DNA of 64,000 nt, taken from NCBI RefSeq assembly GCF_032118995.1, contig NC_092651.1:19638349-19702348 (forward strand), written 5' to 3'. The position numbers and the translations under genes were made by a program. Positions 24,001-63,519 of this stretch are shown in pieces. Within the stretch, counting starts at the first letter, position 1. Every line of letters starts with the position of its first letter. This stretch comes from Asterias amurensis. Taxonomy: Eukaryota; Echinodermata; Asteroidea; Forcipulatida; Asteriidae. The notes beneath the pieces were generated by a model. That model did not search any database, was not told the origin of the DNA, and was given only the letters and a program-made list of their open reading frames with translations.

Positions 24001-25287
24001 GAGCCTTAGCAAAACGTGACTTGTTACATTGTATGTAAATGGCTCGTCGTGGTTTAATTTAAACTCTGGCTCGACTTACATAACTCTCCTAAACCAGCTT
24101 GTGTTTGGTTTGACACAACAATAATATTACTGTGGTCAGCCGTCGATTTCACCAAACTCTTCATAACTTAGGATTAATCTTAGGACTTAGGACGAGTTAA
24201 GTTCCGTATCCATAGACGTTAGGACGCGTTGAGCACATCCTAAATTAAGATGAGTTACTTGTCCTAACTCGAGATAGGAATAAGCGTTTCGTGAAATCGG
24301 CTGCTGGTTTCACAAAACCTTTCAGCTAAAAAAACCTGTACTGGTGTTGAACTTACACAGATAGCAGAAAACCACATTGTCGTCACGAAAGGCACAGATT
24401 CCGACCGAGAAAGTTACTCCGTATTCATGGACAATGCAAAGAAAGTCAACACGGCATTGATTGCCGAACTGAGGCAAAGAGCGATCACTGACATTTACAT
24501 ATGTGGTCTGGCTTACGACTTCTGCGTGGGCCTTACGGCAATGGACGCCCAAAATTTCGGGTACCGGACGATGGTGATTGAGGACGCCACTAGGGGCGTG
24601 TGCCATAAGAAGATGGGAGATACAAAACAGGGATTGCTCGATGCTGGGTGTGTAGTTGGCGATACATCAGAGGTATGAACAAATTTGACTTATGATTTAT
24701 AATTTCTAGAAAGTTAATCCCATCAACCATACGGCACAAATAACATAAGGGAATTTTATGTGCCTTTTTAAACAGTAAAATTTCGCTTTATATACTACTT
24801 TTCTTTGAGGTATACTTGTGGTATTTCCTAACTTTTAAACAAAGGTGTTTATTTTGTGATTTTTGCCGTTTTACAATTCTAGTCATTGTCATAGTGGAGT
24901 GGGCACAATACAAATCAATATACATTATTGTAGTATTAGAAGTATAAAAAAAACTTCAACCAGTGTAATTCTACCAAAATAATTGACCCCTTTATGTGAA
25001 ATCGCAAATCTGAGGAGAAATGAAAGACGCAGTTTATGCTCGATTTTTGTTTGAGTCTGTCTGTTCATTTTCACCAACAGGTCGCAGCCATGCTGTCCAA
25101 GCGGACGAGGCACCCTCGATGGGGTATGGTAGCGGCGCGTAGCGTGGCCAAAGCACGGACGCTAACAAAGGGGCAACCCGATACCGTCAAGTTGAAGAAG
25201 GAGATACCATGTAGGGATCGGAACCAAAACGGCACATCGCTCTGTTATGATGACATTGGATTCGAGCAGGATAGCATTGAGCTGTAG
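18054..25287 (+). CDS. Naam: Nicotinamidase A with N-terminal EF-hand, 8 exons, 387 aa
   Basis: Hydrolyses nicotinamide to nicotinate in NAD salvage (isochorismatase-like fold, as in Drosophila Naam and yeast Pnc1). Exons: 18054–18145, 20599–20725, 21208–21264, 21600–21724, 22517–22631, 23252–23380, 24361–24672, 25081–25287; all GT–AG with agreeing phases. Exons 1–2 join to form a canonical EF-hand loop (DEDGDGVLNKDE), and exons 2–3 resemble a second, degenerate one. Catalytic Asp is in VVDVQHDFIDG, the metal-site Asp/His residues in KDFHPPDH, active-site Lys in VVTKGTDSD and nucleophile Cys in CGLAYDFCVG. The start Met is the only one before the EF-hand. The C-terminal tail is about 37 residues longer than in copy B and is polar. 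No signal peptide, so probably cytosolic. Confidence 0.93.
18492..18680. mobile_element. Palindromic MITE, GGCCCGGTCACACAGGCCCC ends
   Basis: Both ends read GGCCCGGTCACACAGGCCCC-like sequence, followed inward by repeated AACGAGAACGAAA words and a central near-duplicate of ATTGGTTGAA. It lies in intron 1 of nicotinamidase A. Confidence 0.7.
18681..19292. mobile_element. GGGCCCAATTTCATAGAGC element split by a K2 MITE
   Basis: The left end (CCCAATTTCATAGAGCTGCTTAA) and right end (19255–19292) of a foldback element surround a TTAA-flanked K2 copy (18699–19071). Other copies of the outer element read AGAGCTGCTTAGCACAAA without the insert. Confidence 0.7.
18699..19071. mobile_element. K2 MITE (TTAAAGCCATTGGACC ends), copy 1
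   Basis: TTAA at 18699–18702 and 19068–19071 bound inverted ends AGCCATTGGACC and its complement-like AATGGCT. Inner words such as CGATGACCGATTGAGC are shared with K1, so the families are related. The second copy is at 62163–62542. Confidence 0.8.
19469..19823. mobile_element. Diverged K1-related MITE in nicotinamidase A intron 1
   Basis: Internal K1 landmarks are present in order (CAAAGACCAGTCTTCTCACT, CTACGTTACTT, TTTTGAGTTATTACC). Its centre, AATACTTCTAGCTAGAAGTC, differs and matches 60111–60362. TTAA ends are no longer clear. Confidence 0.65.
21993..22203. mobile_element. MITE with TATAGACGATGTGACC ends, intron 4 of nicotinamidase A
   Basis: Inverted ends TATAGACGATGTGACC and GGTCACATCGTCTATA enclose a GC-richer core of about 180 bases. 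Confidence 0.7.
23449..23630. mobile_element. Palindromic MITE, intron 6 of nicotinamidase A
   Basis: Inverted ends around CAAAAACTTGGGTGTTAAAT and an inner palindrome (GACAACACCGACATGGTGTT / AACACCATGTTGGTGTTGTC). It starts about 70 bases after exon 6. Confidence 0.7.
24137..24303. mobile_element. MITE ending CGTTTCGTGAAATCGGCTG, just before exon 7
   Basis: Ends CAGCCGTCGATTTCACCAAA and the inverted form CGTTTCGTGAAATCGGCTG enclose inner repeats of TAGGACTTAGGACGAGTTA. Its right end is 57 bases from exon 7 of nicotinamidase A. Confidence 0.7.
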
Positions 25288-34386: not shown

Positions 34387-37300
34387 TCAACACTCGGGAG
34401 GAATGTTAACAACAAATGTTTCGTCAGGATTCCTAAAGCACATTCTATGCAGGATTTGTAGACACTTCTTACAGTACCAGCCAGAGTCTCTCTGTGTCTC
34501 AGAGTCTCTCTGTGCCTTTGCAATCTTCCTGACAAAGTCTTTGGCCTCACTATGCTTGGCAAGCTTCTCCAGCAGGAGATGTACACTACTTTCCACAACG
34601 TCATGTGTTATCAGTGTTTCACTGTAGAGTCTTTCAAGATCTTTATTATAGACGAAGTCTAAATAACTATCTCCGTGCAATTCAAATACAGCAACAATAA
34701 GATCAATCATGTCTTGATGATATAGCTCAGCTTGAAGGGACCTTCTTAGTGCAACATTTGTGAAAATGTCACCAACTGTGGTTGAACACTCCTCATACAG
34801 GGTAACATTGGAGAAATCTAGGAGAAAAGAAAAGAAAAACATTTGAGAAATAATTAACTATTGGTTTATTTGTTAGGCTCTACATGCAAACCTAAAATTA
34901 TAAATGTGGAATCAGAAGTCAAATTTATTTGCCTAAGTAATGTTGCTTTTTTATACACCTTTTTTAATGCAAGTCACCAGACATACATGGCCTGAAGGCC
35001 ACTTTAAGGTTTGGGCTACAAATCAACTATTTTTCCATGGGCCGTTGCCACCTACTCCAGGGGCTGAAACAGGAGTACAGTCAATATGGATGTAGGCTTG
35101 GGAATCGCCCATCAGAAGCCTGGCTGGTAGAGCAGTACATCCCCAACTGTTAGTGTCATGAACAGGACTTGAACCCACACTCTGCTGAATCCGGTGCTCT
35201 AAGTCGCTAGGCCATGACAAGCCATGGAATTTATTATTATTGTTGAGCTCTCACAATGAAACTTTTTAATAATAATAATAATTGTGGCTTCTTATATAGC
35301 GCACATGTCCGTCACCCAGTGACGCTCCTGGTGCTGTAACATACAGTATTTCCTGACAGATAAGGGACTGTGTTTGAAATTATGAGACCTAATTCTGATA
35401 GCACCATGTAACGCTGTGGCACAATTTGCTACTGATTTTACGAGCGATTGAAAATCACAAATCTTGTTCTTTGTCTATAATGCCTTACCTTGAGTGTTGA
35501 AATCTCCCTTTGCAATGCATTCAAACTCCTCTCCAGTAACTCTACCAGCCTTCACTGTATAGACCTGGTGTGGAATCATCAAGCCTGGTAATTGAATCTC
35601 ATCCACTCCTTGAGTGAGCATCCAGTTTCGGTTAGGACGGTCCGGGTTGTGAAGACATGCACACAGTTGCAGAGCATTGCAGTTGAGCCTATGCAAACCT
35701 TTCACAGTGGCTGTTCTGTTTTGCTCACTTAACTGAATCTCCAATGGTTCATCTATTAGAAAAGACAAACATACTTTGGTTAATTGTGTCAGGTACATGT
35801 ACCTCTATAACCCTCCTGATTCAAACGATGATAAACACATCGTCGGTTCATTGCAGAACCAACGCAAAGCCTCGTAAAATCCTGTTCCCAGAACTTTGTA
35901 CTGTAATTTGCACATTTGGCTTACATGAAAAGACAGGCTGCCACAATTGTTTGTCACCGAATTCGGCTTCATGGGAGGCATTGTAATGTTGTATTTTGGA
36001 AATTGTTTTTTACCTTTTTATCTAGCGCTTTGAGGTCTTATTTGGCAATTTGGCGCTTTATAAATATCTTTTTATTATTATTATTATGAAGTCCATGGAG
36101 GTAAAAATTGTAAGTCTGAGCATCCGAGATTTCAGCAAACCACGGTAGAATTTTTGCCTGGATAGACTTAGGGATTTGTCAGTGGAAATATCCATTGCAG
36201 ATTAGAAATGGCGGCGGATGGCAATGTACTCTCAAAGATGAATTTAAAGGTCTGAAACACTTACAGCTAGATACGAGTTGATCAGTATCAGTAGTATCCT
36301 CTGTGTCTGTGGGGGAGCATCCCGAGGAGCGAGGTTTCTTCTTAAATTGCTTGCATTTCCATGGTTTTAAGAAACATCCCAATACACCAATAACCAATAC
36401 AAAAGAAACAATGGCGAGAACAAGGAAGGTAGCCATTGTAGAATCTGATAGATAAAGATAATGTGAGCAAACCAAATTAAAGATCTCCAGTTTTGTTAAG
36501 GGAGTGGTATGATCATTGGCAAAAAACTAATACAAAATATATAGATGTGTAAAGAACTGAAACTGTGCGCCGTGCCGGTGCGTTGGAGTGGCCCTGCCGG
36601 ATCTTTGAGGACAACGCTCCCACGGCTTGAAATCTTGGTGAACTGTTTCGTGATTGGACGAATTATTGATAATGTATAACAATGTATAACAAAATAATAA
36701 TTGTGTGCTGACCGGATGCGTTGTTTTGGCGCCCTTTCTTGCAATGTATTGTGTGATTAAGTTGTGCAGACAGACCAAATGTTAAATAAATCAGTGTGTT
36801 TCATATCGAATGGAATTTGAGTTTGTTTGTTTTTCTGTCTGCGTTTGGCTACAGAGCAAACAAGGACCCTGGCAGTACGTTACAGATGTATAAAATAAAA
36901 ACTCACTAAAACTAGATTATTGCAAGTTTTTAAAAAGATTTTCACCGTAAAATCTGAAAACCTCTTAAGACAAGGTGACACACATGTAGTAAATGTAGCG
37001 TAGACTTGGCTTTTCTGGTTCGTACATTTTTCAAGGAGACAAGGATTGTTACAATGTATTATTTGTGTTTTCTGAGCGTCTGATGAAGAGAGCTTTTAAT
37101 TGACACAAAACAACTCTTACATTCATCGAGCTTACTAGGAGAGGCATCCCTGGCTACCGGACAACCCAATCGCCCAGCAGGGGGCAGCTAGTGATGGAAG
37201 CTACACCACAGAGTTTTGCGAGTGCCCCCGACCGGCCAAACAGCCCTGGCTACAAGGCTACCCAATCGCCCAGCAGGGGGCAGCTAGTGATGGAAGCTAC

Positions 37301-40300
37301 ACCACAGAGTTTTGCGAGTGCCCCCGACCGGCCAAACAGCCCTGGCTACAAGGCTACCCAATTGCCCAGCAGGGGGCAGCTAGTGATGGAAGCTACACCA
37401 CAGAGTTTTGCGAGTGACCCCGACGGGCCAAACAGCCCTGGCTACAAGGCTACACAATTGCCCAGCAGGGGGCAGCTAGTGATGGAAGCTACACCACAGA
37501 GTTTTGCGAGTGACCCCGACGGGCCAAACAGCCCTGGCTACCGGGCTACCCAAACGCCCAGCAGGGAGCAGCCAGTGATTGAAGCTCCAAAGCGGAGTTT
37601 TGCGAGTTACCCTTACCGGCCAAAACCTTTGCTGTTAAAGTAGTAAAAAAAATTTTCATTACCATTTTTGTCAATGTTTTTAATGTCTACTGGATTCTTC
37701 GCGATGGTATCTCCTGCTTCAGGTTTCGTTGATGTCACACCTGACAAAAAATAAATAAAGAAAATAGTTCACATTCATGAGACTTGTTGTACTCCCTCTT
37801 GGCACATTCTTGGTTGGGAAAGATATTCTGCACATCCTCTAAGTTTTTCTAAGATTTTGAAAATCCAGTTTCAGTTTTTCTAAGTTTTTGAAAATCCTAT
37901 TTCAGTTTTTCAGAATGTTTGCAAATCCTATTTCAGTTCTTATGAATGTTTGCAAATCCTATTTCAGTTCTTCTGAATGTTAGCAAATCCTATTTCAGTT
38001 CTTCAGAATGTTTGCAAATCCTATTTCAGTTCTTCTGAATGTTTGCAAATCCTATTTCAGTTCTTCTGAATGTTTGCAAATCCTATTTCAGTTCTTCAAA
38101 ATGTTTGCAAACTTCTCTTTCAGTATGTTAGCACCCTTCCAATCCCATACACTTTGTACTCTCTCTCTGTTTCCTCTACTGGTTGGATACCTTTGAATCT
38201 TATTCATTCATTCATTCATTCATTCATTCATTCATTCATTCATTCATGTATCATTGTTCATCATGATATAAAAACATAAAATTCCATATCTCAAGAATTA
38301 TTCTTGCCTACACCCCTCCCGAGTTTAAAAGGCTATTTCAACAAATTTGCAAAGCCATTGAAGAGTATCACTTACCGGTGGTAGATTTTGCAGTGGTAGT
38401 TATAACAACTTCCTCTGCCGTGGGTTGAGGTGTTGTTACTGTGAAATATAACAGATCCAAAATATTACATTTAAATCAACATCAAGCCCCACTACAAATA
38501 TTGCACTATGGTTCAAATGTGTGCAAGTTAAATGGACACATGGCTTGGGGTAGTTTACTACATTACTGGCCAAATGATACTCAGCTAAGAATATTTATTG
38601 TAGGGTTGTCATGCAAGCCTGTTTGCTTCGTTTTTGAAAGGGCAAGGACACCAAGGCATTTTCTCCTTGGTTAAAGGGCACCCTATAAGGAAATTGTAAA
38701 CTTCCGCTGGAGCATTTCAAGGGCCAGGCAATGACCGGGGGCATGGAGGCAATCGCCTCAGTGCCTTTGTGAAGTATCAGGCCTGATCATGGCAGAGTGG
38801 TTTAGAACGTCAGTTTCAAGTTCTAGTTGTTGAGTCATTAGGCAGTGGGTTTCTAATCCTGGTCAAGACACGTGTGTCCTTCAGCAAGATGCTTTTTTTT
38901 ACTACAATTGCGAGGGTAGAGGTTGATATTGTGTTTGAGAAAGTATTCAAAGTGCCACTACCCAGGGAGCCGAGAAAGATTACAGAAATGCTGTCGGCCC
39001 AGTGAGAACAAAAATTATTTTAAGCATTTACAATAGATTTACTTGACTCTCCTGATGTGAACTTTGCTCTGTGATTTTCACTTTTTTTCTCTCAATAACT
39101 TGACGGCTATTGAAGCTGAAACTTCTACAGTAAGTGGGGATCCATGTCATGGCCAAAAACCTGGACCTATAAAAGGTATCGAAACCCTTTAACTTAAAAA
39201 AGGGTGGTGTTTGTTGTTCTTAATAATCCAAAGATTTTATTCCCTTTGTAGTGACTTATATTGCTATTTGTATTTGTCAGGCAACAACCGTTTATTTTGG
39301 TACAGAAAACATATACATTGTATATATTTGCTACATGCAACAGCAGTTGACTTTTTCCATGTGCTTCAGCTTTTTGCATGGGCAACGCCATCTTGTTTTA
39401 TGAAGTCAACAGATAAACATGCATCATTTTATTGCCCCACCTCCGCGACCTACACCATTACAACCACCTGAACCTACAGCAACACTACCAACAGTGGATG
39501 AACGACCACAGCCCCGCACAACTCGCTCTGGGAGACATGTTTACTGGCCGTCACGCTATGTCCAGTTTTTAGATTTTGGCTGAACTTCACCTTATATTCT
39601 TTGTTTAGCATCATCGACCTCTGATACCATCATCGATCTAGGAGGGGGGCTAATGTAGTGACTTATATTGCTATTTGTATTTGTCAGGCAACAGCCGTTT
39701 ATTTTGGTACAGAAAACATGTACATTGTATATATTTGCTACATGCAACAGCAGTTGACTTTTTCCATGTGCTTCAGCTTTTTGCATGGGCAACGCCATCT
39801 TGTTTTATGAAGTCAACAGATGAACATGCATCATTTTATTGCTCCACCTTCGGTTTTATAACTTCAGTTAAGTTTCATTCAAAGGGTATTCAGGAAAACC
39901 CTATTTGGCCATTGCTAACACTGTATACTACATATCTTCGCTCCAAGTATTGTGAGGGATTCCAGCACCTTTTTCTGTGGAAAAGCGTAACAATTCTAAG
40001 TTGCAATTCGTGCGGTTTGACTCTTAATCTTTGGAGTACGTGCGCTACATTCGTGCACGTTTTGACCATCGCTGTGATTCACCATTGGAAGAGCGGATGG
40101 TCATCTTATCAGTACTTTTACGCAAGTAAATTGACGGTGTTTTACATTTACTTCACCTTCAATATCCATGAAACGCATACCTTTTGGCGCATTGATCTCT
40201 TCACAAAATGTTTCGTTAGCTAGAGGATAACTTCCTAAATTCAGGTACGAGCTGCAGACTTTAGGGCAGAACCCATTTTGAATGCATGGTTTGTAAATGT

Positions 40301-40463
40301 TGAGGTGTCCATGTTGGTCAAGATCAAATGGATCTTCTGGGCAAAATGCACAGTGAATGCAATCACCATGTAGACAAAATTTTCTGGTGAGACAAAGAAA
40401 AAACAAAATACAAGTGTAAAGAAATACACTATAATACTACTAATAATAATAATAAAAATAATG

Positions 40464-40495
<32 letters not shown>

Positions 40496-42111
40496 CGTAT
40501 TTATAACGCGCCTTTTGCCAAAAGATACAAAGTGGCAGGTATTTTGACTGCAAGGAGTGGGGCGAAGTTTGAATTATGAGACCTAATCCTTAGCACCATG
40601 TTATGGTTTACAAGATGCTGTGGCGCAATATGCTGCCAATCCAGCCAGGAACACCAGGGCGAACCCCTTCTCTTTTTCGATAAGTCTATGGGTTCTTTTA
40701 CACAACACATGGGACCAACGTCTTTGCGTCCCATCCGAAGGACGAAGCAATGGTTAATTGTCTTGCTTAAGGACATGCGTTTTACAGCTGGGGATTCGAA
40801 CCCACACTCTGCTGATCAGAAACATCAGAGTTTGAATTCGGTGCTCTTAACCGCTCGGCCACGACACTAATCAACAATGCACTTTTTTTAGATGAATGTT
40901 TTACACTGTTTAAATTTACATTGTGTTAAAAAAAATAAGCATACAAAAACTGTTTAAAATATGTGTTTGTATAGATAATCTTCCCATAAAGGAAACTCGG
41001 CAAACTCCCCCGCAAGGGAACTTAAACAGCCGATGATCGGCAAATTCTCTCTCAAGCAAACATACATCTATGATTATAAATTGCACAAGTAAAAGGCTAA
41101 CTGTGATTTCACACAAATACATGTCTTTATGGTAATTTTCTTGGTGGATCTATTGATTCCATTCCTCCAGAGTAGATTCAGAACTTACCCTGAATTGTTG
41201 TCACACGGCGGATCACATTTCCACTCTTCGGGGTCCCTTTCAACTATAGTTGGTATTCTTTGTTCAGTCACTGAAGCCAACATTATCAATATGAAGCCTT
41301 GGACCACGATTAGCTGTGAAAGTAAAACAGAAATTCCACACTTACTCATGATTGGGTGCCAAGGCTTAAGCCAGGGTTTGGTTAAAGGGCGTCAAAATTT
41401 GCTGGCAATTTCAACTCATGGTGTCCAAATTAGTTTAAAACTGATCACTTACATTTCATTTACAAAGAGAAAACGGATGAAACAGGGTGTCCACATTTAA
41501 AAAAAGGTGTCCAAAAGACACCCTCTCTGGCTACATGTAACACTATATGTTGGGTGCTTAGTGGAAAAACATCGAGGCTGTTCAACATGGACCTTCTCTT
41601 CCAGGAACGCATACTTTTACAATGTCTGTCCCATCAAATTCTGAATCAAACACATTTTTTTAAACACAATAAACCCAAACCCCCTCCCCCTAAGTTCAGT
41701 TTGAAAAGGTGTAAATTTTTTTAGATATATCTAAAATAAATCTAGAGCTGTTTTTTGTGAATAATCAGTAATTGGATAAAAAATAACAAGCTGAGAAAAG
41801 TGGTTGACAGCAATGTTTCTCAGATTAAAATTTGGCGGCATAAAACCTCATAATATCTTTCTACATAAATATAGGGCCTATTACTTTGAAGTGAAATGTT
41901 TCTCAACTTGCATAACAGGCCTACTATCGAAAGCTTCTGTTTTTCTATTCAAGTAAGTTTTCTTGTCATTGTTTAGAGTGATTACCAACCGAATACCTTC
42001 CCTTTCACAGATTTACATAAAACTTAGAAAACATGCAGTGATTTACATTTTCCAATGTCTAAATCTCGTAGCAAAATACATTATTACCTTTGTGTGCAGC
42101 TGCAAATCCAT
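34387..42111 (-). CDS. Receptor A: type I membrane protein with TNFR-like Cys-rich domain, 455 aa
   Basis: Minus strand, eight exons: 42088–42111, 41189–41313, 40181–40383, 38376–38438, 37663–37740, 36265–36444, 35489–35752, 34387–34817; all GT–AG and all phases agree. Exons 1–2 give a signal peptide (MDLQLHTK then a hydrophobic run ending ASVTEQ). Exons 2–3 form a cysteine-rich ectodomain with Cys-x2-Cys-x2-Cys (GDCIHCAFC) and a later GFCPKVC, which resembles one TNFR-superfamily cysteine-rich domain. Exons 4–5 make a Thr-rich stalk (VVITTTTAKSTT). Exon 6 has one transmembrane helix (ATFLVLAIVSFVLVIGVLG), a basic stop-transfer (KPWKCKQFKKKP) and an acidic Thr-rich stretch. Exons 7–8 encode about 230 cytoplasmic residues that I do not recognise; their helical character allows a death-fold-like guess only. 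Exons 1–3 match receptor B in plan. Confidence 0.8.
35035..35222 (-). mobile_element. tRNA-derived SINE, intron 7 of receptor A
   Basis: On the minus strand it reads TGGCCTAGCGACTTAGAGCA (A box region) and GGTTCAAGTCC (B box), then an SINE body. It is in the same orientation as the host gene. Confidence 0.7.
35263..35445. mobile_element. SINE 3′ part with AAT tail
   Basis: (AAT)n, then TTCTTATATAGCGCACATGT and ATTATGAGACCTAATTCTGA. These words recur in the fuller SINE at 40440–40868. Confidence 0.6.
37140..37635 (+). repeat. 96-base minisatellite, about five units, open reading frame throughout
   Basis: Units of 96 bases (32 codons) around CAGCAGGGGGCAGCTAGTGA repeat about five times in receptor A intron 5, with the last unit more diverged. 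Because 96 is a multiple of three, the plus strand stays open for 150 codons (MEATPQSFASAPDRP… repeated). That strand is antisense to the host gene. The array stops about 25 bases from the exon 5 donor. Confidence 0.9.
37840..38125. repeat. 31-base tandem array in receptor A intron 4
   Basis: About eight or nine units of ATGTTTGCAAATCCTATTTC + AGTTCTTCTGA, with the outer ones diverged. Confidence 0.85.
38199..38247. repeat. (ATTC)n microsatellite
   Basis: Roughly twelve ATTC units. Confidence 0.95.
38784..38905 (+). mobile_element. tRNA-derived SINE fragment
   Basis: Reads ATGGCAGAGTGGTTTAGAAC, then GGGTTTCTAATCCTGGTCAA (B-box region) and GTGTCCTTCAGCAAGATGC. Confidence 0.6.
39247..40146 (+). 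mobile_element. Remnant Ty3/gypsy-like LTR retroelement (fossil)
   Basis: Two direct copies of a sequence that starts TGTAGTGACTTATATTGC (39247 and 39654) agree over about 190 bases with about three differences, as expected for LTRs of a young insertion. Between them lies a short internal stretch with the proline-rich tail of a pol-like product (motif RTTRSGRHVYWPSRYV) and a polypurine tract just before the second LTR. The element is broken: most of the internal region is absent. The right end is uncertain; a TTTTACA at about 40146 is one possibility. It sits in receptor A intron 3, close to the exon 3 donor. Confidence 0.7.
40440..40868 (-). mobile_element. Near-complete tRNA-derived SINE
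   Basis: On the minus strand: TCGTGGCCGAGCGGTTAAGA (A box region), GGTTCGAATCCC (B box), a body with TCCTTAAGCAAGACAATTAA and GTCCTTCGGATGGGACG, then a 3′ tail through ATTATGAGACCT to (ATT)n. It is the reference copy for the other SINE pieces here and lies in receptor A intron 2. Confidence 0.85.
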
Positions 42112-49600: not shown

Positions 49601-51843
49601 TAATAAACTATTATAACCCCGGTTAGAGTTGACCTTTGATCTGGTTTACATAGAGTTCAGGTCAACTTTGGGTACTGCGTGACTCGTCTGAGGATCAAAA
49701 TGACACGAATTTTTAGCTTTAAGAAGACTGAACCCGATTAGGATCTTGGGTATTTTTAGCAAGAAAAATGGACCATACTGACTGGGAATGGGTCTCGCAC
49801 ATTGAACCCTGATTTTGTTCAATGGAGATTTCGAGTATGTTTGCAGCTTAGCTAAAACTGAACTGACGAGGTATTTACATAAACAATATTGTTAGGCAAA
49901 ACTACCAAAAAACTGTGGAGAGACATCGTTATACAGTCATGACATAATGGCCAGAGAGGCAACAATGGGATACTTTGGAACGCTAGGTGGCAGCAGACTT
50001 ACCAGGTAAATTTCCCTTTAGTTCTAATAAGCATACGCACATTGCAGAACACAATGGATTTCTGGTAGGTTACCCGTACCTTTAGTTCCCCCTTTTGGAT
50101 ACCTTGTATTTAATAATAATCTCAGTGTTATTATTTTAATAACATAGGCTGCTGGATTTTGTTCAGTTTGACGTGGTGGTATACACGAAAGATCTCCACC
50201 CTCCAAATCACATGTCCTTCTATGATAATCTGCATCTCAGGAGACTCCACCCATCCAGCAAGGTATGACCAATAGCAATGACGGCTGAAATGACGTAATG
50301 ATAATATTATGCACATACCTGAATTTATAACGAGGAAAATGATTTGAAACTTTGCGTGGTTTGAGTATAATCAGTTGGGGTTTGCGGTAGAAGCTGCCAT
50401 GGTGCTTCTGAAAACCTCACCTGTTAATTATTGTTCATTTGCATGATGGACTTGCGGTCCTTCGTTATGGACGTACCAACACGGATTGATGAATACCATC
50501 GTCCTCCTGGAAGCGGACAGGCCGCACCGACAAGACAATGTCGGCACCATGCAAGTTGGGTGTGCATGTGCTTATCACAACATTTTAGATGGGTAATTTT
50601 TCCAACATCAGTTTTCTTTTAATTTATTGTGTGTATTTATTTATTTTGTAATATTGCGTCTGCCCGTATTTATTCAAAACTGTCTCTTCAATTCGAAGGT
50701 AAAAGCTGAAGACGCCCGCATGTTGGACACCGTCGTGTTTGACAGAATGCCGTTAGTCGATCAGACTTTGTGGCCCGTGCATTGCATAGAGGGCACTTAC
50801 GGAGCGGAGTTTCATCCAGATCTAAAAGTAAGGAGTTTATTTCTTGTAAAAAGAATACAAAAAAAAAATAAATAAGTAAAAATTAGCAAAAAAAAAAAAT
50901 ATACATATGTACAAGAATACAATCGGTTGCCATAACACTAAAAGATCATCTTTCAACGTTGTCGTTTAGCGCCATAGCCATTACCGAAATCTCCTGACGA
51001 TCGGGAGCGGGATAGTTTGCAAGGTATTTTCATTTTTTTTTCAAAAACTGTCATTTCAGATTGTCGACAACCACATCATAGCTCCAAAGGGAACGGACCC
51101 CGAGATTGAAAGCTACTCTGTCCTTATGGATAACACAAAACAAGTCAATAAGGAACTGGTTGCCGAATTAAGGCAGAGAGCGATCACTGACGTTTACGTC
51201 TGTGGTCTAGCTTACGATCTCTGCGCAGGCAGCACGGCGATGGATGCCCAAAGTCTCGGGTACCGGACTATGGTAGTCGAGGACGCCACGCGTTGCGTGT
51301 GCCATGAGAAGACAAGAGCTATGGAACAGGGATTGCTCAATGCTGGGTGTTTGGTTGGCAAAGCGTCAGAGGTTAGTGTAGAAAAACTGAACGTTTCCAA
51401 ATTGGCGGCTAAAGCCGTGTTTTCATTGCACTTAAAAAGGTTAACTTACCGCCGCAGGCCCGAGGAAAGTTACAAGACCCAAAAGTCCAATGCGAACGCG
51501 GCTTAAGGCTACAAAGGCTGGATTGCGCAAAAGTAACGATATTTATTTATTTCTCGTAATTTCCGTTCTGTTAGAGTTGCAACATTTTCAAATCGGCACT
51601 ATAGTTGATAAAAAGACGGTATGTAAGAAGAGCGTCCTTGCAGAGATGTCGACAGGGAGTGCTCGTTTCTGCATCTCCATTGTTCCGTCATTATTTTGTG
51701 TATTTATTAATTTGATGAAACTGACATTTTAATGTCCTCTCCCACAGGTTCCAGCTATGGTATCAATGCAGACAAGACCTCCTCGATGGGGGCTAGTGGC
51801 GGCACTTAACGTAGCGGCCAAGCTCGGTACTGGTCCTCTTTAA
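46603..51843 (+). CDS. Naam: Nicotinamidase B with N-terminal EF-hand, 8 exons, 352 aa
   Basis: Tandem paralogue of nicotinamidase A. Exons: 46603–46697, 47918–48044, 48228–48287, 49112–49236, 50148–50262, 50699–50827, 51060–51371, 51748–51843. Exons 2, 4, 5, 6 and 7 have exactly the lengths of those in copy A (127, 125, 115, 129, 312). The EF-hand loop is DGDRDGSLNEDE. Catalytic Asp (VVDVQNDFIDG), metal-site residues (KDLHPPNH), Lys (IAPKGTDPE) and Cys (CGLAYDLCAG) are all kept, so it should be active. The exon 4 donor (CA|GTTAAT) is weak and the sequence around it is repeated in intron 4. The tail after PRWGLVAA is short. Probably a cytosolic NAD-salvage enzyme with its own expression pattern. 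Confidence 0.93.
48570..48951. mobile_element. K1 MITE in nicotinamidase B intron 3
   Basis: Complete, with TTAA at 48570–48573 and 48948–48951. Its right end is 160 bases before exon 4. Confidence 0.88.
49225..49650 (+). repeat. Three tandem copies of the exon 4 donor region of nicotinamidase B
   Basis: A unit of about 100 bases that starts at the last codons and donor of exon 4 (TCATTAACCAGTTAATAAAC) recurs at about 49328 and 49588. A MITE (49389–49554) sits inside the second unit. Each unit repeats an ATTAACCA|GTTAA donor-like site. Confidence 0.85.
49389..49554. mobile_element. MITE with TATACGCCTCTCTTAATA ends (copy 2)
   Basis: Partner of 16571–16731: both carry CCCAAAATGAGGCTATGGGC-type and GCCTCGTTTTGAGTTAGCAT cores. 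The right arm is more diverged here. Confidence 0.75.
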
Positions 51844-54397: not shown

Positions 54398-55164
54398 TAT
54401 GGTGGCCCTGAAGGGACATCGCATATCGCAAACGTGTGCGCATACGTATGCAATGTCGTGAAACAATTCGCAAATATGTGCCCACACGAATGCAATGTCG
54501 TGAAACAATTCGCGAATATGTGCGCACACGTATGCAATGTCGTGAAACAATTCGCAAATATGTGCGCACACGTATGCAATGTCGTGAAACAATTCGCGAA
54601 TATGTGCGCACACGTATGCAATGTCGTGAAACAATTCGCGAATATGTGCGCACACGTCTGCGAATATTGATTGCGATGTCGTGAATTTTATTGCATACCA
54701 TGTTGCATACCTTTGAATAAAATGTCTAATGATCTGGGGGGTTGTGCCAAGTTCCTGGGTATACACATGCTTTACAGAGGGAGTCTGCTGTAGCGCCACA
54801 GTACTCCCTAGATCGGTAACAAATTATCCACAACTATGACATCATCCTAATGGTATGCAACATGGTATGCAATAAAATTCACGACATTGCAAAACAAATC
54901 GCACTCGTGTGCGCACATATTCACGATTTGGTTCACGACATTGCATACGTGTGCGCACATATTCGCGATTTGTTTCACGTCATTGCATACGTGTGCGCAC
55001 ATATTCGCGAATTGTTTCACGACATTGCATACGTGTGCGCACATATTCGCGAATTGTTTCACGATATTGTATACGTGTGCGCATATATTCGCGATTTGTT
55101 TCACGACATTGCATACGTGTGCGCACACGTTTGCGTTATGCAATGTCCCTTCGGGGCCACCATA
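54398..55164. mobile_element. Foldback element with 42-base tandem repeats in both arms
   Basis: Ends TATGGTGGCCCTGAAGGGAC and the inverted GTCCCTTCGGGGCCACCATA are flanked by a perfect 6-base repeat CCTTTG (54392–54397 and 55165–55170). Each arm is an array of about five or six 42-base units (CATGCAATGTCGTGAAACAA-type, with TTCGCGAATATGTGCGCACA) in opposite orientation around a 120-base centre. Since 42 is divisible by three, several frames stay open for 90–160 codons as 14-residue repeats. No transposase is present. The build is like Drosophila FB/Galileo elements. Confidence 0.88.
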
Positions 55165-56355: not shown

Positions 56356-59300
56356 ATGAACTTTTCACACGATGCATGCTGGAAGGTAAGTTACTTTCAC
56401 TTTCATGTTTTCATTGAATACAGACATGACAGAAAGGAAGTTTGTTTTGCACTTGACACCAGGAACACTGTACTACATGTACACTGTTGTACTTCCTATG
56501 ACCCATTCATTTTCCCCATTTCAATTGTTTTCTTCCTCCAAAACTTTCATCAGAAAGTTGTTTACCTTTAAAAATCTGTTCCCATGTAAAACAGGCAATA
56601 CATTGTGACGCGTGACCTGTCCTTGCTCAAAACTATGATATTGGTGTGATGTGATATTGTCTTAAAGACATTGAACACCTTTAGTCATTTTCAAAGATCA
56701 GTCTTCTCACTTGGTTGCATCTCAACATACAAAAGTTTGAACTCAAATGGTCGTCAAGTTGCGAAATAATTGGAAGAAAAGACACCCTTGTCACTTGAAG
56801 TTGTGAGCTTTGAGATGCTTGATGTCGGGACCTCAAAATCCAATTCTGAGGTCTCAAAATCAAATTAGAATATTTTAGTGGAAAATTACTTCTTTCTCGA
56901 AAACTTATTATTTCAGAGGGAGCCGTTTCTCACAATGTTTATCAATAGCTCTCCATTGCTTGTTACCAAGTAAGTTTTATGCTAACAATTGTTTTGAGTA
57001 ATTACCAATAGTGTCCAGTGCCTTTAGAGTATCTGCCTGTAAGAATGTACATATGTACCAAATTTCGGGGTGGGAGGGGGGGGGGGTTGATAATAGGATT
57101 TCAGATCTTCTTCTGAAAAACTAGAGTGAAACATCATCAAACTATTTTGTGTGTTGAAGTGTTCAGTCTCAGAAAAACCAGAAGGATAAAAAGGTACAAA
57201 CAGGCCTTAGTCATAATTGTTTTTTAAAATTTGCCTTGTTGACCCAATTCACCTGACGTCATCATCAGAAAAATCTTGAATACGCCATACTGGTGGGCAA
57301 TTTCACTGTGCGTTCTTATGTATAACTCTATGCTGTGCGTTATTCAGTGAAGTGCGCATTTTAGGCGACGCGGCGTTTACACATACATGTAAACCTAAAT
57401 GCCCACCAACATGGTGAGCATGGCTCAGTCGACGCGTGTGCAAGGGGTCAATTGACAATGTTGCAGTGAGTTACAATGTAGCTACACTATTTTTTATTTC
57501 GATCAGTTGCGTACATCTCTCTTATAAAGAGAAGATGGGTGTATCACAGACTTTCCCAGATGTCCGATATATTTACACCCAGTGTGTCCTTACATGTACC
57601 TCGATCAAGAACCTTTAGTTGTTGGCATGAATTACAGTTTTAAATGGTGAAACTGAACTAGTGACATTTGAAGGCTACTTTTGCATCTGTTTGTTGAGCA
57701 TTGGCTATAAACTCTGTTTTGAGTTGGGTAGAAGTGCCTGGTTTTTGCACTTAGTGTATGTATTTTTTAATGAGAAACACGTTTAGGAAAATTGACGAAT
57801 TTGTGAATGAGGCCAAAGGTGGAGCTGCTCTCCTCACTACAAAAGTCCACTACATACATGTAACATGAATTGTACCTGGAAACATGGAAAACCACTAAGA
57901 TAGTTTTTAAACTTGTTTACCAATTTGTTTGCATAATACATCAATGGGCTTTGTTTTTGCTGTTAAAAATACATTCATTCAAGTGCTTTTTAAACCAGGA
58001 TGTGAGAATGTAATAGTTGTCTTTGTTTTAAGTCCACTTCCTGTGTGTTATCATATCATGTTATAAGCCTGTGCTCTCCCTTTGTTTTACTGCTGTGCTA
58101 TATTGGGGCTTACCCTTACAATGCCTTAGCACTAGCTTGGCGTACATTGTCAGATTGTCTAGTAAAAACTGCTGTGTGTTAGTAAAGGACACTACCGGGT
58201 GTCTCAAAAAAAATTATACACTTTTGAAATGGCTGCCGAATAAAAAATAAACGATTCTGGGGAAGAAGGTTTTTGTTTATGGATAGCTTATGGTCTCAAC
58301 TTTCACATGACACCATAAAGTCTGAAAATAATTCATGATTGTGTGAGCAATGCTCACTTTTGTGAAGGGTTGAAAATAAGGCTGCGCAGGAATTAGCCTT
58401 CCCTTTGTGAGAGGTAAGTCCTTTGTAGCTTACACAATTCAATCCAAGATTTCGGCTACTTCAGGTCAATGGGTAACCTGAAGAATAAGTAGCCAACATC
58501 TTTGACATTCCTGTTTTCAAAAAAACGTATTATTGAACAATCTTTGTACATAATCCCCATCTGATTATTAAGAAAAACCAATGAAATGTTCAACTCATCT
58601 TACAATAACTGAAATGCGGGATGAAGGTTTTTATTCAAAGTCACAGATGTTAAATAACAAACACAGTTTGTAACATGGAAATTGCTACATGTACCATCAC
58701 CCCATCGCGACTCACATGAAGACACCACTGAGTCTACCAGGGAATGTTACAATGCTACAAGAACAAAAATGCATTTCCTGTTCACTTATGAATGTATAAA
58801 AAAAATGTTTTAATAAACCATAAACTTCACTCAGCAAACCAAAACTGATCGATTTGAGCATTAATTTATTACATCACCCTCAATTTTGTAAGCTCTCAAG
58901 TTGGAAGGCTAACTCCTGCGCAGCCTTATTTTAAACACTTCACAAAAGTGAGCAGTGCTCACCCAGCCATGAATTATTTTCAGACTTTATGGTGTCATGT
59001 GAAAGTTGAGACCATAAGCTATCCATAAACAAAAACCTTTTTCCCCAGAATCGCTTATTTCTTATTCGGCAGCCATTTCAAAAGTGTATAGGTTTTTTTG
59101 AGACACCTGGTACATGTACTCAACTTGACCTGTGGGCTAATAAAAACTGTCCAACCTACATGTAATGCTCATACTTCTCCATTTTCAGATGTGAATAATA
59201 AACTTTAAAAATGATTGCGTATCAGCCGAAATGTGTATCGGCTTGCAAGTTGTGCACACTGGCCCGATACACGAGCCTGTGCATGGGGAAAACTCTGATC

Positions 59301-62300
59301 ATTCTCTCAATATTTATCCTGACTCATAACAAAAGTTTAATCCAGTGCCAGGCCTAGACCATAGTCCAGTGCGAGGCCTAAATATTTTATTCCTAAAATT
59401 GAAGGTGGTACCCATATTATTAGCAAACTTAGCCTAATACTTTGAACACATTGGCAACAGAAGCAACTGTCCAAACAATGCCACATGTCACTGCTTAAAA
59501 ATGTTCCAGTAGACATTTTCATTTACGGGTCATTCCGTGTCAAATCACCCAATTGGTTAAACCTACCCTCTTCAAATTTGCTCAAATTTGGTGTATGGGG
59601 TAATCATGGCTCAACAAACTCAAATTTCAAATTTCAGCTCCATCCGATAAAACATTCTGTTTTAAGGAAAAACTGCTGTGCCAATTACTAGTACTATTAT
59701 AAAGGTTGGACTTGGCCTCGTACAAAATGGAAGCAGATACACCTGTGTATGTTTCGTTCACTAACGTGGCCATGTAAATAGTGTCTGGTTTCACCTTTTT
59801 TTTCTGTTTTTTTTTCTCTCCAGGAGTGCCTGTTGAAGCTGGTTCTGTTGGCAGCATGTCTGATGGACGCAATACTTGCTCAATGCCCTCCTATTCCTAT
59901 ACGAACAATGACACCAACGGGGGCTTATGATTGTTACCCGGAATGTCCAGCGGGGTAAGTAAACGCTCACACTCAGACTGGTCCCTTTGTTTTTATCCGG
60001 CTTGGTCATTGTCATAAACTTTTGAGCAGTGTACATTTTGCATGGTGTTTCCAGCATAAAACGAAGCCTAGGGCCAGACTGCCAGAGACAAGATTTTGGG
60101 CTGTGGTGACTTAAAGGCACTGAACACGTTTGGTAATTGTCAAAGACCAGTCTTCTCCTTTGGTATATCTCAATATAAACATAAAATAACAAGCCTGTGA
60201 AAATTTGGGCTCAATTGGTCGTCGAAGTTGCGAGAAAATGATGAAAGAAAAAACACTCATTTTTGAATGAATTTGTGTGCTTTCAGATATGAAATAAAGA
60301 CTTTTAACAGAAGCTAGAAGTCTTTTAACATTTTAGTGAGAAATTACCTCTTTCTCAAAGAGGTTTTTATATAAGACCACTTCATGTAGTACCTTTAAAC
60401 GGTTAACCATGTGCTGCTGCGCTCTCAGCACCCACTTCCATAAACACCGGGGAAAACCCCTTCTCTTTATGATACATGTAAGTGTACTGAAAAGCAGTAA
60501 AATGAACCACTTATCGTATTCCTAATGTAGTTTGATTTTCTTCATATTGCATCGCAGCACTTAAAGGCAGTGGACACTATTGGTAATTACTCAAAATAAT
60601 TATTAGCATAAACCTTACTTGGTAATGAGAAATGGGGGAAGGTTGATAGTATAAAACATTGTGAGAAACGGCTCCCTCTGAAATTATGAAGTTTTCGAGA
60701 AGGAAGTAATTTTCAACGAATTTGATTTTGAGACCTCAGATTTAGAATTTGAGGTCTCGAAATCAAGCATCTGATAGCACACAACTTCGTGTGACAAGGA
60801 TTTTTTTCTTTCTTTTTATCTCGCAACTCCGACAACCAATCAAGCTCAAATGTTCACATGTTTGGTATTTTATGCATATGTTGAGATATACCAAGTGAGA
60901 AGACTGGTCTTTGACACGTACCAATAGTGTTGAGTGTCTTTAAACCGTAAGATGGTGCTTTAAAAAAAGAAAAGGGTCTGTGACTCAAAAAGGATAGCTC
61001 CGCACAACTTGCAGGAAAAACACTGAGCATTTTGAGACATCCATCTACTGAAGCGCCATGAGTATCACTAAGTGGCTTATTTGAGCGCTACACTTATAGA
61101 AGCCTTTTTTCTATGCTATTAAATTGTTATTACTATTATTTTTGTAAAAGCAAACAGAGATCCTCCTTCAGTTAACTATTTATTATCATGTCCTCCAGGA
61201 GTTATTGTCACAATGGTCGTTGTAATACCTGCTCAGCGTGTCCAGACCCTTACACACTGGCCGAGCAGGGGGAGACTGAATTGTTCATTGTCGCGGAGTG
61301 CATAGACAAAGGATCCTGTCCGAACTCTTGTATTGCCAACCCTTCCTGGCCGAAGGGAAATGCAACAATGTGCCAGGACGAGTGTGTTGACCCAACACCA
61401 CCTCCACCCACAGGTATGTGTAATAATAATAATAATAGGGAGGTTTGGCTGCATGCTACACGAGCAAAAACGTGAGCATGAACGTCACTTGTTGTGAAAT
61501 TATTAAGTTTTAAGCGTACGTGAAAGTACGTGCAGACATCATACGTGAGCCCAAAGTGGTGAAGTCACCTAGAAATAACACAATTTTCTTACGTGAACGT
61601 TCACGTTTGTGCTCGGGTAACGTGCAGCTACATGTAAACCTTCCTAATACAATAATAATAGACTTGCTATGTGAACATATCCACCCTGCTTGGTGTTCAA
61701 GGCACAGAAAACACTACGTATGCACTAGAGGTTCGCCTCAAAAAGTAGCGAGAATCAGAGAGAAAACCTCATTGGGTTCCAGGCAGAACAATGTAATTTT
61801 TTTCCAACCTTCTGCTGTAGAACTTTTTGTTCCAGCAAAAGATTCTTTTTTTTCACAAGACTCGGGGGAAAGTACCGAGTATACAGTGTTTAGAACACAC
61901 ATCGGTGTATGGGTAAAAAAATAAAATAAAAATAAAATGGTGCTCTCTTGAATATTTTTTAAACCGCAATATCAACCGCTACCCTCACAGGTACTTATTT
62001 GTACCCCTGGGTAAAGAGACGCAGTTATTGTAAAGCATCTTGCTGGAGGACACAAGTGTCATGAACGAGATTTGAACCCCCACCCTGATGACTTAACCAC
62101 CAGAACTGGAGCACTGAACCACTCCCACATGACTTGCCATAATGCATAAAGTCCATAGCTCCTTAAAGCCATTAGACCTTTTCGGTACAGAAAAAAAAAA
62201 AAAAGTTCACAGATTTACAAATAACTTACAGGGTTTACAGAAGGTAGTGGTGAAAGACTTCTCTTGAAATATTATTCCATGAAATGCTTTACTTTTCGAG

Positions 62301-63519
62301 AAAACAGTAAAACAATATCAATTCTCGATAGCGAGAATTATGGATTTATTTTAAACACATGTCATGACACGGCGAAACGCGCGGATACAAGGGTGGGTTT
62401 TCCCTTTATTTTCTCCCGACTACGATGACCGATTGAGCCTAAATTTTCGCAGGTTTGTTATTTGATATACATGTAGAAGTTGTGATATACGAAGTGTGGG
62501 CCTTGGACAATACTGTTTACCGAAAGAGTTCAATGGCTTTAAGCTTGGTTCATGCTTCATGTTAATGTGATACAAATTTTGACATCACAGGGCTGGGCTA
62601 TTTTCGCAGTGAATGTTTCAAAGGAGTTGAGTACGAGTCAACTGACTCAAATTGTTTGTTGCGGCTGAATTTTTAATATTTGCTGCTTTAGGCGCTGATG
62701 GACACCTTTGGTAATAGTCAAAGACCAGTCTTCTCACTTAGTTTATCTTAACATGCATTTAACAATACAAACATGTGAAAATTTGAACATGTGGAAATTT
62801 GAATTGGTTGTCAAATTGGGAGAGATTGTAATGGAAGCAAAAACACCCTTGTCGAGCAAGTTGTGTGCTTTCAGATGCTTGAATTTGAGACCTCAGCTGA
62901 GGTCTCAAATTCAATTCAAATATTTGAGTAGGAATTACTTTTTTCTCAGACACTGCGTTCTTTCAGAGGGAGCCGTTTCTACACAATGTTTTATACTATC
63001 AACAGCTCTCCTCCATAAATCATTACCAAGTAAGTTTTGCTGACAATAATTTTGAGTGATTACCAATAGTGTGTGCCCAGTGTCTTTAAGCAGCTCAAGT
63101 ATAGTGTCTCTGTTCTTTACTTTTGTCTTTGTATGTATCTGTTATTACAGAGCCCCCGACATGCAAGGTTGGATGTAAACATGGCGGCTGTGTTGAGAAT
63201 GGTGGATGCAAGTGAGTATTGGCACAGAAACTATCCACAAAACATTCTGCTATTGTCTACTGTAAAAACATTGTGTAATTTCTTAGTGATATAATTCAGA
63301 TGCAGGCTTGGGATGACTTCAAATGCTTTTTAAGTATTCATGGTTTCAAAACTATAATTATTTTTGCTAACCTTTTTGTGAATTTCAGTTGTGACGATGG
63401 TTGGTTAGGGGCGCTGTGTGATGAATGCATCCCGGATCTAGATTGCCAACATGGTCAATGCAATGAAACAGAAAGGTGTATATGTAATCAGGACTGGGAT
63501 GGCGATAACTGCGACCAAG
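56356..63519 (+). CDS. Receptor B: TNFR-like Cys-rich domain plus DLK-like EGF repeats (runs off right edge)
   Basis: Exons 56356–56385, 59824–59954, 61199–61413, 63151–63211, 63389–63519, then beyond the window; GT–AG and phases 0, 2, 1, 2, 1. Exons 1–2 encode MNFSHDACWK and a hydrophobic signal core ending DAILAQ. Exons 2–3 carry the same cysteine layout as receptor A (YCHNGRCNTCSACPDP with Cys-x2-Cys-x2-Cys, later GSCPNSC) and a proline hinge (PTPPPPT). Exons 4–5 encode two EGF-like repeats, CKVGCKHGGC…CDDGWLGALC and CIPDLDCQHGQC…DWDGDNCDQ, whose spacing follows EGF1–2 of Delta-like non-canonical ligands (DLK1). So it is extracellular, perhaps membrane-bound further on. Exons 1–3 are paralogous to receptor A. 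Calling the first domain TNFR-like is inference. Confidence 0.78.
56662..57026. mobile_element. K1 MITE in receptor B intron 1
   Basis: Starts TTAAAGACATTGAACACC at 56662. The right end, GTGTCCAGTGCCTTTAGA, has lost its TTAA. Confidence 0.8.
58193..59112. mobile_element. Tc1/mariner-type non-autonomous element, 916 bases
   Basis: TA at both ends; termini CCGGGTGTCTCAAAAAAA and TTTTTTTGAGACACCTGG. The inverted arms extend about 210 bases (for example AAGTTGAGACCATAAGCTA in both). A TA duplication and long inverted repeats fit the Tc1/mariner superfamily. The 490-base centre has no transposase. Confidence 0.8.
60111..60362. mobile_element. Truncated K1-related MITE
   Basis: Starts TTAAAGGCACTGAACACGTT and keeps the AGCTAGAAGTCTTTTAACA centre like 19469–19823. 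It is cut at about 60362 beside a SINE fragment. Confidence 0.7.
60395..60490 (-). mobile_element. SINE middle fragment
   Basis: CACCGGGGAAAACCCCTTCT and the TGCTGCTGCGCTCTCAGCAC region match the body of the SINE at 40440–40868. Confidence 0.45.
60561..60943. mobile_element. K1 MITE in receptor B intron 2
   Basis: TTAA at 60561–60564 and 60940–60943, full palindromic core. Opposite in orientation to the copy at 60111. Confidence 0.88.
61437..61648. mobile_element. MITE with GGGAGGTTTGGCTGCATGC ends
   Basis: The left end, GGGAGGTTTGGCTGCATGCT, and right end, GTGCAGCTACATGTAAACCT, are inverted repeats, and CACGAGCAAAAACGTGA pairs with CACGTTTGTGCTCG. It begins 24 bases after the receptor B exon 3 donor. 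Confidence 0.6.
62030..62145 (-). mobile_element. tRNA-derived SINE head
   Basis: Minus-strand GGGAGTGGTTCAGTGCTCCA and GGTTCAAATCTCG match the head of the local SINE family. Confidence 0.6.
62163..62542. mobile_element. K2 MITE, copy 2
   Basis: TTAA at 62163–62166 and 62539–62542, ends AGCCATTAGACC and AATGGCT. It is close in sequence to 18699–19071. Confidence 0.85.
62697..63089. mobile_element. K1 MITE, left end frayed
   Basis: Begins GATGGACACCTTTGGTAATA and ends CCCAGTGTCT with TTAA at 63086–63089, about 60 bases before receptor B exon 4. Confidence 0.8.

Follow-up and report, generated by a model that had tools for sequence, protein, structure and literature searches.

A putative type I receptor of the sea star Asterias amurensis with an EGF exon block of probable Delta/Jagged origin

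Introduction

The described systems closest to the gene presented here are (i) the Delta/Jagged ligands of Notch, which carry C2-DSL at the N-terminal side, (ii) DLK1 and DLK2, which are membrane proteins with six epidermal growth factor (EGF) repeats of Delta type and no DSL domain, and (iii) the tumor necrosis factor receptor (TNFR) superfamily. An account of a sea urchin gives 13 TNFRs, three of them with a death domain (PMC4979521), and TNFR hybrids described from amphioxus, e.g., TNFR-caspase, make domain shuffling in such receptors a known theme (PMC2575513). Among the titles and abstract openings of the open literature, no TNFR-EGF receptor was recognized in echinoderms. The gene in question, gene B, begins in the window, i.e., the whole 64,000-nucleotide stretch of Asterias amurensis DNA that was analyzed (contig NC_092651.1, here C4; C4:19638349-19702348), and continues to the right of it. 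Gene B is probably a type I single-pass receptor of a family with two further genes (A and C), into which an EGF exon block was captured from a Delta/Jagged-type gene. Coordinates follow the numbering of the window, which is carried on rightwards for positions above 64,000.

Organization of gene B

Gene B is assembled from the following exons:

56356-56385, plus strand: exon 1, start codon and MNFSHDACWK; phase 0 out; open frame with a GT donor
59824-59954, plus strand: exon 2, signal peptide and first cysteines of the N-terminal domain (NTD); hydrophobic peak at residue 13
61199-61413, plus strand: exon 3, bulk of the Cys-rich NTD; homologous to exon 3 of gene A and to gene C
63151-63211, plus strand: exon 4, 61 bp, first part of EGF1; phase 1 to 2
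63389-63519, plus strand: exon 5, 131 bp, remainder of EGF1 and EGF2; phase 2 to 1
64105-64224, plus strand: exon 6, EGF3, 120 bp
65421-65552, plus strand: exon 7, EGF4
67015-67185, plus strand: exon 8, membrane helix; phase 1-1
73182-73442, plus strand: exon 9, cytoplasmic
74770-75200, plus strand: exon 10, last exon, cytoplasmic; homologous to the last exon of gene A

Exons 1-5 each have a GT donor, exons 2-5 each have an AG acceptor, and the five form a single 189-aa open frame that contains CDDGWLGALCDECIP and CQHGQC and leaves the window at its right end. Reading on for 40 kb to the right adds exons 6-10, so that gene B has 10 exons and 560 aa, with a stop codon present. The order of domains is signal peptide, Cys-rich NTD, four EGF repeats, one membrane helix and a cytoplasmic part. 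The initial annotation had pointed to the right of the window for more EGF repeats and a membrane helix, and EGF3, EGF4 and the helix exon at 67015-67185 are found there. The least certain part of the gene is its 5' end (exon 1 with the start codon), where the frame stays open upstream of the ATG.

Exons with a membrane helix were sought from exon 3 to the last exon of B by a scan that requires a pyrimidine tract and common donors and is not exhaustive. It gave five rows; four are variants of 67015-67185, the exon that keeps the phase, and the fifth (71688-71755) is weaker and does not fit in phase. The same scan recovers the helix exon of gene A. With a hydrophobic N-terminus and one helix exon in phase, B is predicted from its sequence to have the layout of a type I single-pass protein. 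From exon 3 onward all junctions are phase 1, save the junction within EGF1; thus, the EGF block could enter or be skipped without a shift of frame.

Two repeat features adjoin the gene. To the right of the window, the segments 74129-75955 and 75953-77779 are identical tandem copies of 1827 bp (offset 1824), each with the last exon of B. To the left of the gene, tandem and inverted repeat arrays are seen by eye around 'acgtatgcaatgtcgtgaaacaattcgc' at 54420-55140.

The EGF block and its likeness to Delta/Jagged ligands

Compared with solved structures, the four-EGF block of B best matches DLL1 over EGF1-3 (E 2.8e-32, 115 bits); the next matches of EGF1-3 are JAG1 (3.1e-26, 96 bits), DLL4 (3.6e-22) and JAG2 (6.8e-21), whereas WIF1 and teneurin structures reach 33 and 29 bits with the block. 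EGF1-2 taken separately is closest to Jagged-1 (E 7.5e-11), then to Jagged-2, Serrate and Delta-like, with HHIP and WIF1 weaker. All 12 cysteines of EGF1-2 align to JAG1, with one gap of two residues.

The exon structure of this region corresponds to that of human JAG1. Published splice labels place the end of JAG1 exon 4 at c.694 and the start of exon 7 at c.887 (labels c.694+1 and c.887-2; PMC7982861); exon 5 ends at c.755 and exon 6 at c.886 by the labels c.755+ and c.886+ (PMC6899717). As derived from these labels, JAG1 exon 5 is c.695-755 and exon 6 is c.756-886, i.e., 61 and 131 bp with phases 1-2-1. Exons 4 and 5 of B have these same lengths and phases, and the codon split between them corresponds as well. 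In JAG1 the split codon is labeled Arg252 (PMC6899717), which, by the alignment of B with JAG1 and the numbering Cys234/Arg235, is the residue between Cys4 and Cys5 of EGF1. The codon divided in B is that of an Asn, which likewise stands between Cys4 and Cys5 of EGF1. Exon 6 of B has 120 bp, which we take to be the length of JAG1 exon 7 likewise. By its structure matches together with the JAG1 exon lengths and phases, EGF1-2 of B is of Delta/Jagged type.

The DSL domain of these ligands was not found before EGF1. No DSL model is listed for the whole of B in Pfam at E up to 10, and the sole DSL trace, on the EGF piece, scores 9.3 bits where the cut-off is 24.2. The EGF repeats had been described as DLK-type in the initial annotation. 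A Notch-ligand type without a DSL domain is the better description: among solved structures EGF1-3 of DLL1, JAG1, DLL4 and JAG2 are closest, with the sole DLK1 chain listed (81 aa) matching query residues 69-142 only. The domain search of the full protein in Pfam, likewise put forward in that annotation, ranks EGF models below cut-off and returns neither TNFR_c6 nor DSL.

The A/B/C family

Gene A lies about 14 kb from gene B, is a paralogue without the EGF block and has a complete frame of 455 aa in 8 exons:

42088-42111, minus strand: exon 1
41189-41313, minus strand: exon 2, signal peptide and first NTD cysteines
40181-40383, minus strand: exon 3, Cys-rich NTD
38376-38438, minus strand: exon 4, Thr/Pro-rich stalk, phase 1-1; sits where B carries the EGF exons
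37663-37740, minus strand: exon 5, stalk, phase 1-1
36265-36444, minus strand: exon 6, membrane helix, phase 1-1
35489-35752, minus strand: exon 7, cytoplasmic; 65% identity to gene C
34387-34817, minus strand: exon 8, last cytoplasmic exon; homologous to exon 10 of B and to gene C

Gene C, the third gene of the family, is at C4:19167423, 0.5 Mb off. The three were related by searches of the genome (491,506,623 bases, 23 contigs) that score best candidates only, so that three genes is a lower bound. A query of 64 aa of B exon 3 finds three places, namely B, C (E 3.2e-4) and A (E 4.7e-4). The last exon of A matches A, C (E 1.7e-25) and B twice (E 0.16); the last exon of B matches B twice and A (E 0.2), and C is not among these matches.

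The NTDs of A and B align locally with a score of 118, which is reached by none of 1000 shuffles (maximum 54) and none of 1000 shuffles with the cysteines held fixed (maximum 87). Likewise, none of the 1000 plain and none of the 1000 Cys-fixed shuffles reaches the score of 98 between their last exons. A and C have the same spacing of NTD cysteines, 3-(5/7)-4-2-2-(18/19)-5-3-(13/16), and that of B is almost identical, with ten cysteines in common. B thus has both the NTD spacing and the last cytoplasmic exon of the family. In its single open frame, gene B joins an A-like cysteine cluster to EGF repeats, as the initial annotation had supposed. The same annotation had noted exon borders at the phases of A and suggested exon shuffling after exon 3; A and B do agree in their first three junction phases (0, 2, 1), and this proposal is well supported, with the later junctions in phase 1 except inside EGF1.

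Between the NTD and the helix of A and C, no EGF pattern and no tblastn match better than E 0.28 was found; this span is 17.6 kb in C. A and C have dN below dS in all three exons compared (dN/dS pairs 0.33/1.98, 0.27/0.39 and 0.45/0.89), of which the middle pair is weak evidence. Genes A, B and C are, by their predicted products, a small and unnamed receptor family with at least three members, of which only B shows EGF repeats. The NTD and the cytoplasmic domain stay under every Pfam cut-off, and A, B and C may therefore be receptors that have not been described so far.

In all three genes the last exon closes with the motif C-x2-C-x4-H-xn-C, which resembles a metal site. A PHD_4 match on the last exon of A (Pfam, 16.8 of 30.6 bits, 2 of 3 members) was set aside as a mere hint of this motif. 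The helical part of the last-exon domain could, judged by eye alone, be a death fold; Pfam gives no Death match. Within the TNFR superfamily, a death domain or a TRAF-binding tail is present in some members but not in all. Matches of the last exon to PDB chains were taken as chance, both the 'CAP REPEAT' chain (whole-chain E 9.4e-7, a total over four repeats of E 1.2-5.1 each) and S100 and others at E 0.13 or more. The same applies to matches of the NTD to ferredoxins (E 0.01) and weaker PDB rows, and in Pfam the NTD matches to Fer4_8 (E 0.0058) and zf-NF-X1, as well as Ephrin_rec_like on the NTD of B (E 0.047), were set aside as weak. NCBIfam gave just two weak rows and PADLOC none.

Other open frames and domains were noted around genes A and C. 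The long intron span of gene C includes, at about C4:19178322-19179515 on the plus strand, a 398-aa frame that resembles the N-terminal part of RAG1 (RAG1_imp_bd 22.9 bits, just below the cut-off of 23.3, E 7.6e-5; RING finger E 4e-7). The 20 PDB chains listed for this frame are mostly RING/ubiquitin-ligase by name, with no RAG1 chain among them. The span also holds a 273-aa open frame (L009 near 3664, plus strand) that appears by eye to be a C-type lectin. Gene A is flanked by isochorismatase-domain matches (PF00857) at 24295-24678 (E 2.7e-11) and 50970-51506 (E 2.5e-10), both on the plus strand, and a THAP domain is at 12599-13075 on the plus strand (E 7.2e-13).

Relationship to TNF receptors

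The cysteine cluster of B had been annotated as a TNFR-like domain. This assignment was not borne out, as Pfam gives no match to TNFR_c6, the six-Cys repeat of the superfamily, in A, in B or in exon 3 of C, and the TNFR pattern has no match in the NTDs. The genome has 22 TNFR_c6 places at E up to 0.1 (14 above cut-off), and A, B and C are not among them. A profile of the three NTDs compared with one of 14 TNFR_c6 repeats (14 of the 22 places, eight being left out as short or with sequence not taken) gave a probability of 15.5% over 12 columns. Repeat-versus-repeat controls (four random splits of the 14) gave 97.2-98.5%, and the negative pairs gave 2.1% (EGF versus TNFR) and 1.7% (NTD versus EGF). 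The likeness of the NTD to TNFR, though above both negative pairs, is confined to the C-x2-C-x2-C core.

A gene with TNFR_c6 repeats is present beside gene B:

88481-88744 (C4:19726829-19727092), minus strand: two TNFR_c6 repeats

The first of these is the best TNFR_c6 match of the genome (C4:19726829-19726948, minus strand), with the second repeat adjoining, 11-13 kb right of the last-exon copies of B. A helix-bearing exon at 86728-87031 (minus strand) probably belongs, as judged by eye, to the same gene. In tblastn over the stretch right of the window, including this gene, the last exon of A matches only the two copies in B.

Proposed origin and alternative explanations

The proposal is that an ancestor of B acquired its EGF exons as a block from a gene for a Notch ligand of Delta/Jagged type. 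Recombination within phase-1 introns would have placed the block where A has its two phase 1-1 stalk exons, an exchange that would preserve the reading frame. In the resulting protein the NTD would sense a ligand, and the helix would relay the signal to the cytoplasmic last-exon domain. The EGF block would serve as a stalk and a second contact surface, possibly touching Notch or another EGF protein. By phase, in-frame skipping of exons 4-7 could yield a short, A-like form without EGF.

Several points weigh against this reading. The best-scoring Pfam model on the EGF block is teneurin EGF, below cut-off (47.1 of 65 bits for the whole of B and 32.3 of 65 bits on EGF1-2 alone), and the Delta/Jagged (JAG/DL) EGF models on EGF1-2 are also below cut-off (26.8 and 20.7 of 27 bits). 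Human JAG1 serves as the reference by which the donor is identified. The penultimate exons of A and B align with a score of 25, which 291 of 1000 shuffles reach; without an alignment above shuffles, the placement of this exon in B rests on position, phase and length only. The 1827-bp tandem copy that holds the last exon may be a recent duplication or a fault of assembly. A somewhat unlikely alternative is that the EGF block is ancestral and was lost in A and C, or that it derives from another gene of similar exon pattern: the comparison of three genes from one genome does not settle the direction of change, and HHIP, WIF1 and teneurin structures match too, if more weakly. However, the fit to JAG1 exons 5-6 is exact to the base, and the bit scores of DLL1 and JAG1 stand far from those of WIF1 and teneurin. 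Because the exon structure (61/131 bp, phases and split codon) decides over the Pfam ranking, we conclude that the EGF exons of B probably descend from a Delta/Jagged-type gene.

The remaining explanations concern the gene as a whole. It is improbable that B is a TNF receptor superfamily member plus EGF repeats: its type I layout, the C-x2-C-x2-C core that resembles TNFR repeats over 12 columns and the nearby TNFR gene are consistent with this, but none of the 22 TNFR_c6 places falls in the family, the TNFR pattern does not match and the profile probability is far below that of the repeat controls. An extracellular mode of action, as a Notch ligand or decoy akin to DLK or Delta, would account for the nearest matches of EGF1-3 and, as in DLK, for the missing DSL domain. 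Such a role is doubtful, as the NTD of B occupies the place of C2-DSL, DSL is found neither in the whole protein nor above cut-off on the EGF piece, and the cytoplasmic last exon is common to A and C, where EGF was not found. The ligand or decoy type raised by the initial annotation is similarly disfavored, on the gene model, by the membrane helix and the cytoplasmic exon homologous to that of A, and a soluble decoy seems unlikely because of the helix and tail. The possibility that exons 1-3 and the EGF exons are two neighboring genes joined by eye is slight. The model of B is known from genome sequence alone, its introns are long and EGF exons were not found in A and C; yet A-like exons of the same strand flank the EGF exons on both sides, the phases agree throughout, and the helix scan lists a single in-phase exon from exon 3 to the last exon.

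If captured as proposed, the EGF block makes gene B an unusually clear case of exon shuffling, in which exon lengths, phases and split codon still indicate the type of donor gene, and the paralogue about 14 kb away that lacks the block adds to this clarity. Should the block still bind Notch, two signaling systems would be united in one molecule. A bolder and rather unlikely suggestion is that A, B and C form a receptor family of their own in which neither the ligand-binding domain nor the cytoplasmic signaling domain, the latter ending in the metal-binding-like motif C-x2-C-x4-H-xn-C, has been described, and that B took the Notch-facing EGF1-3 of a Delta/Jagged ligand; if true, B would be a receptor wired to Notch-presenting neighbors.

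Comparison with known systems

Gene B shares features with each of the systems compared. Like members of the TNF receptor superfamily, B is predicted to be a type I receptor with a Cys-rich ectodomain that includes a C-x2-C-x2-C core; unlike them, it lacks a TNFR_c6 match, carries 18-19 residues in the loop that follows the core, and has ten shared cysteines rather than six. DLK1 and DLK2 resemble B as membrane proteins with Delta-type EGF repeats and no DSL domain; by contrast, B has an added NTD, four EGF repeats against their six and a long cytoplasmic part of A/B/C type, and it is not assigned to the DLK proteins. With receptor A and gene C, B shares the NTD, the last cytoplasmic exon and, in A, the phase 1-1 helix exon, whereas EGF repeats were not found in these genes and A has two short stalk exons. 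B differs from the Delta/Jagged ligands in the lack of a DSL match, another N-terminal domain, its four EGF repeats and a cytoplasmic exon of the A/B/C family; yet it has in common with them the collinear EGF1-3, the 12 cysteines of EGF1-2 and, in the comparison with human JAG1, the exon lengths of 61 and 131 bp along with the phases and the split codon.

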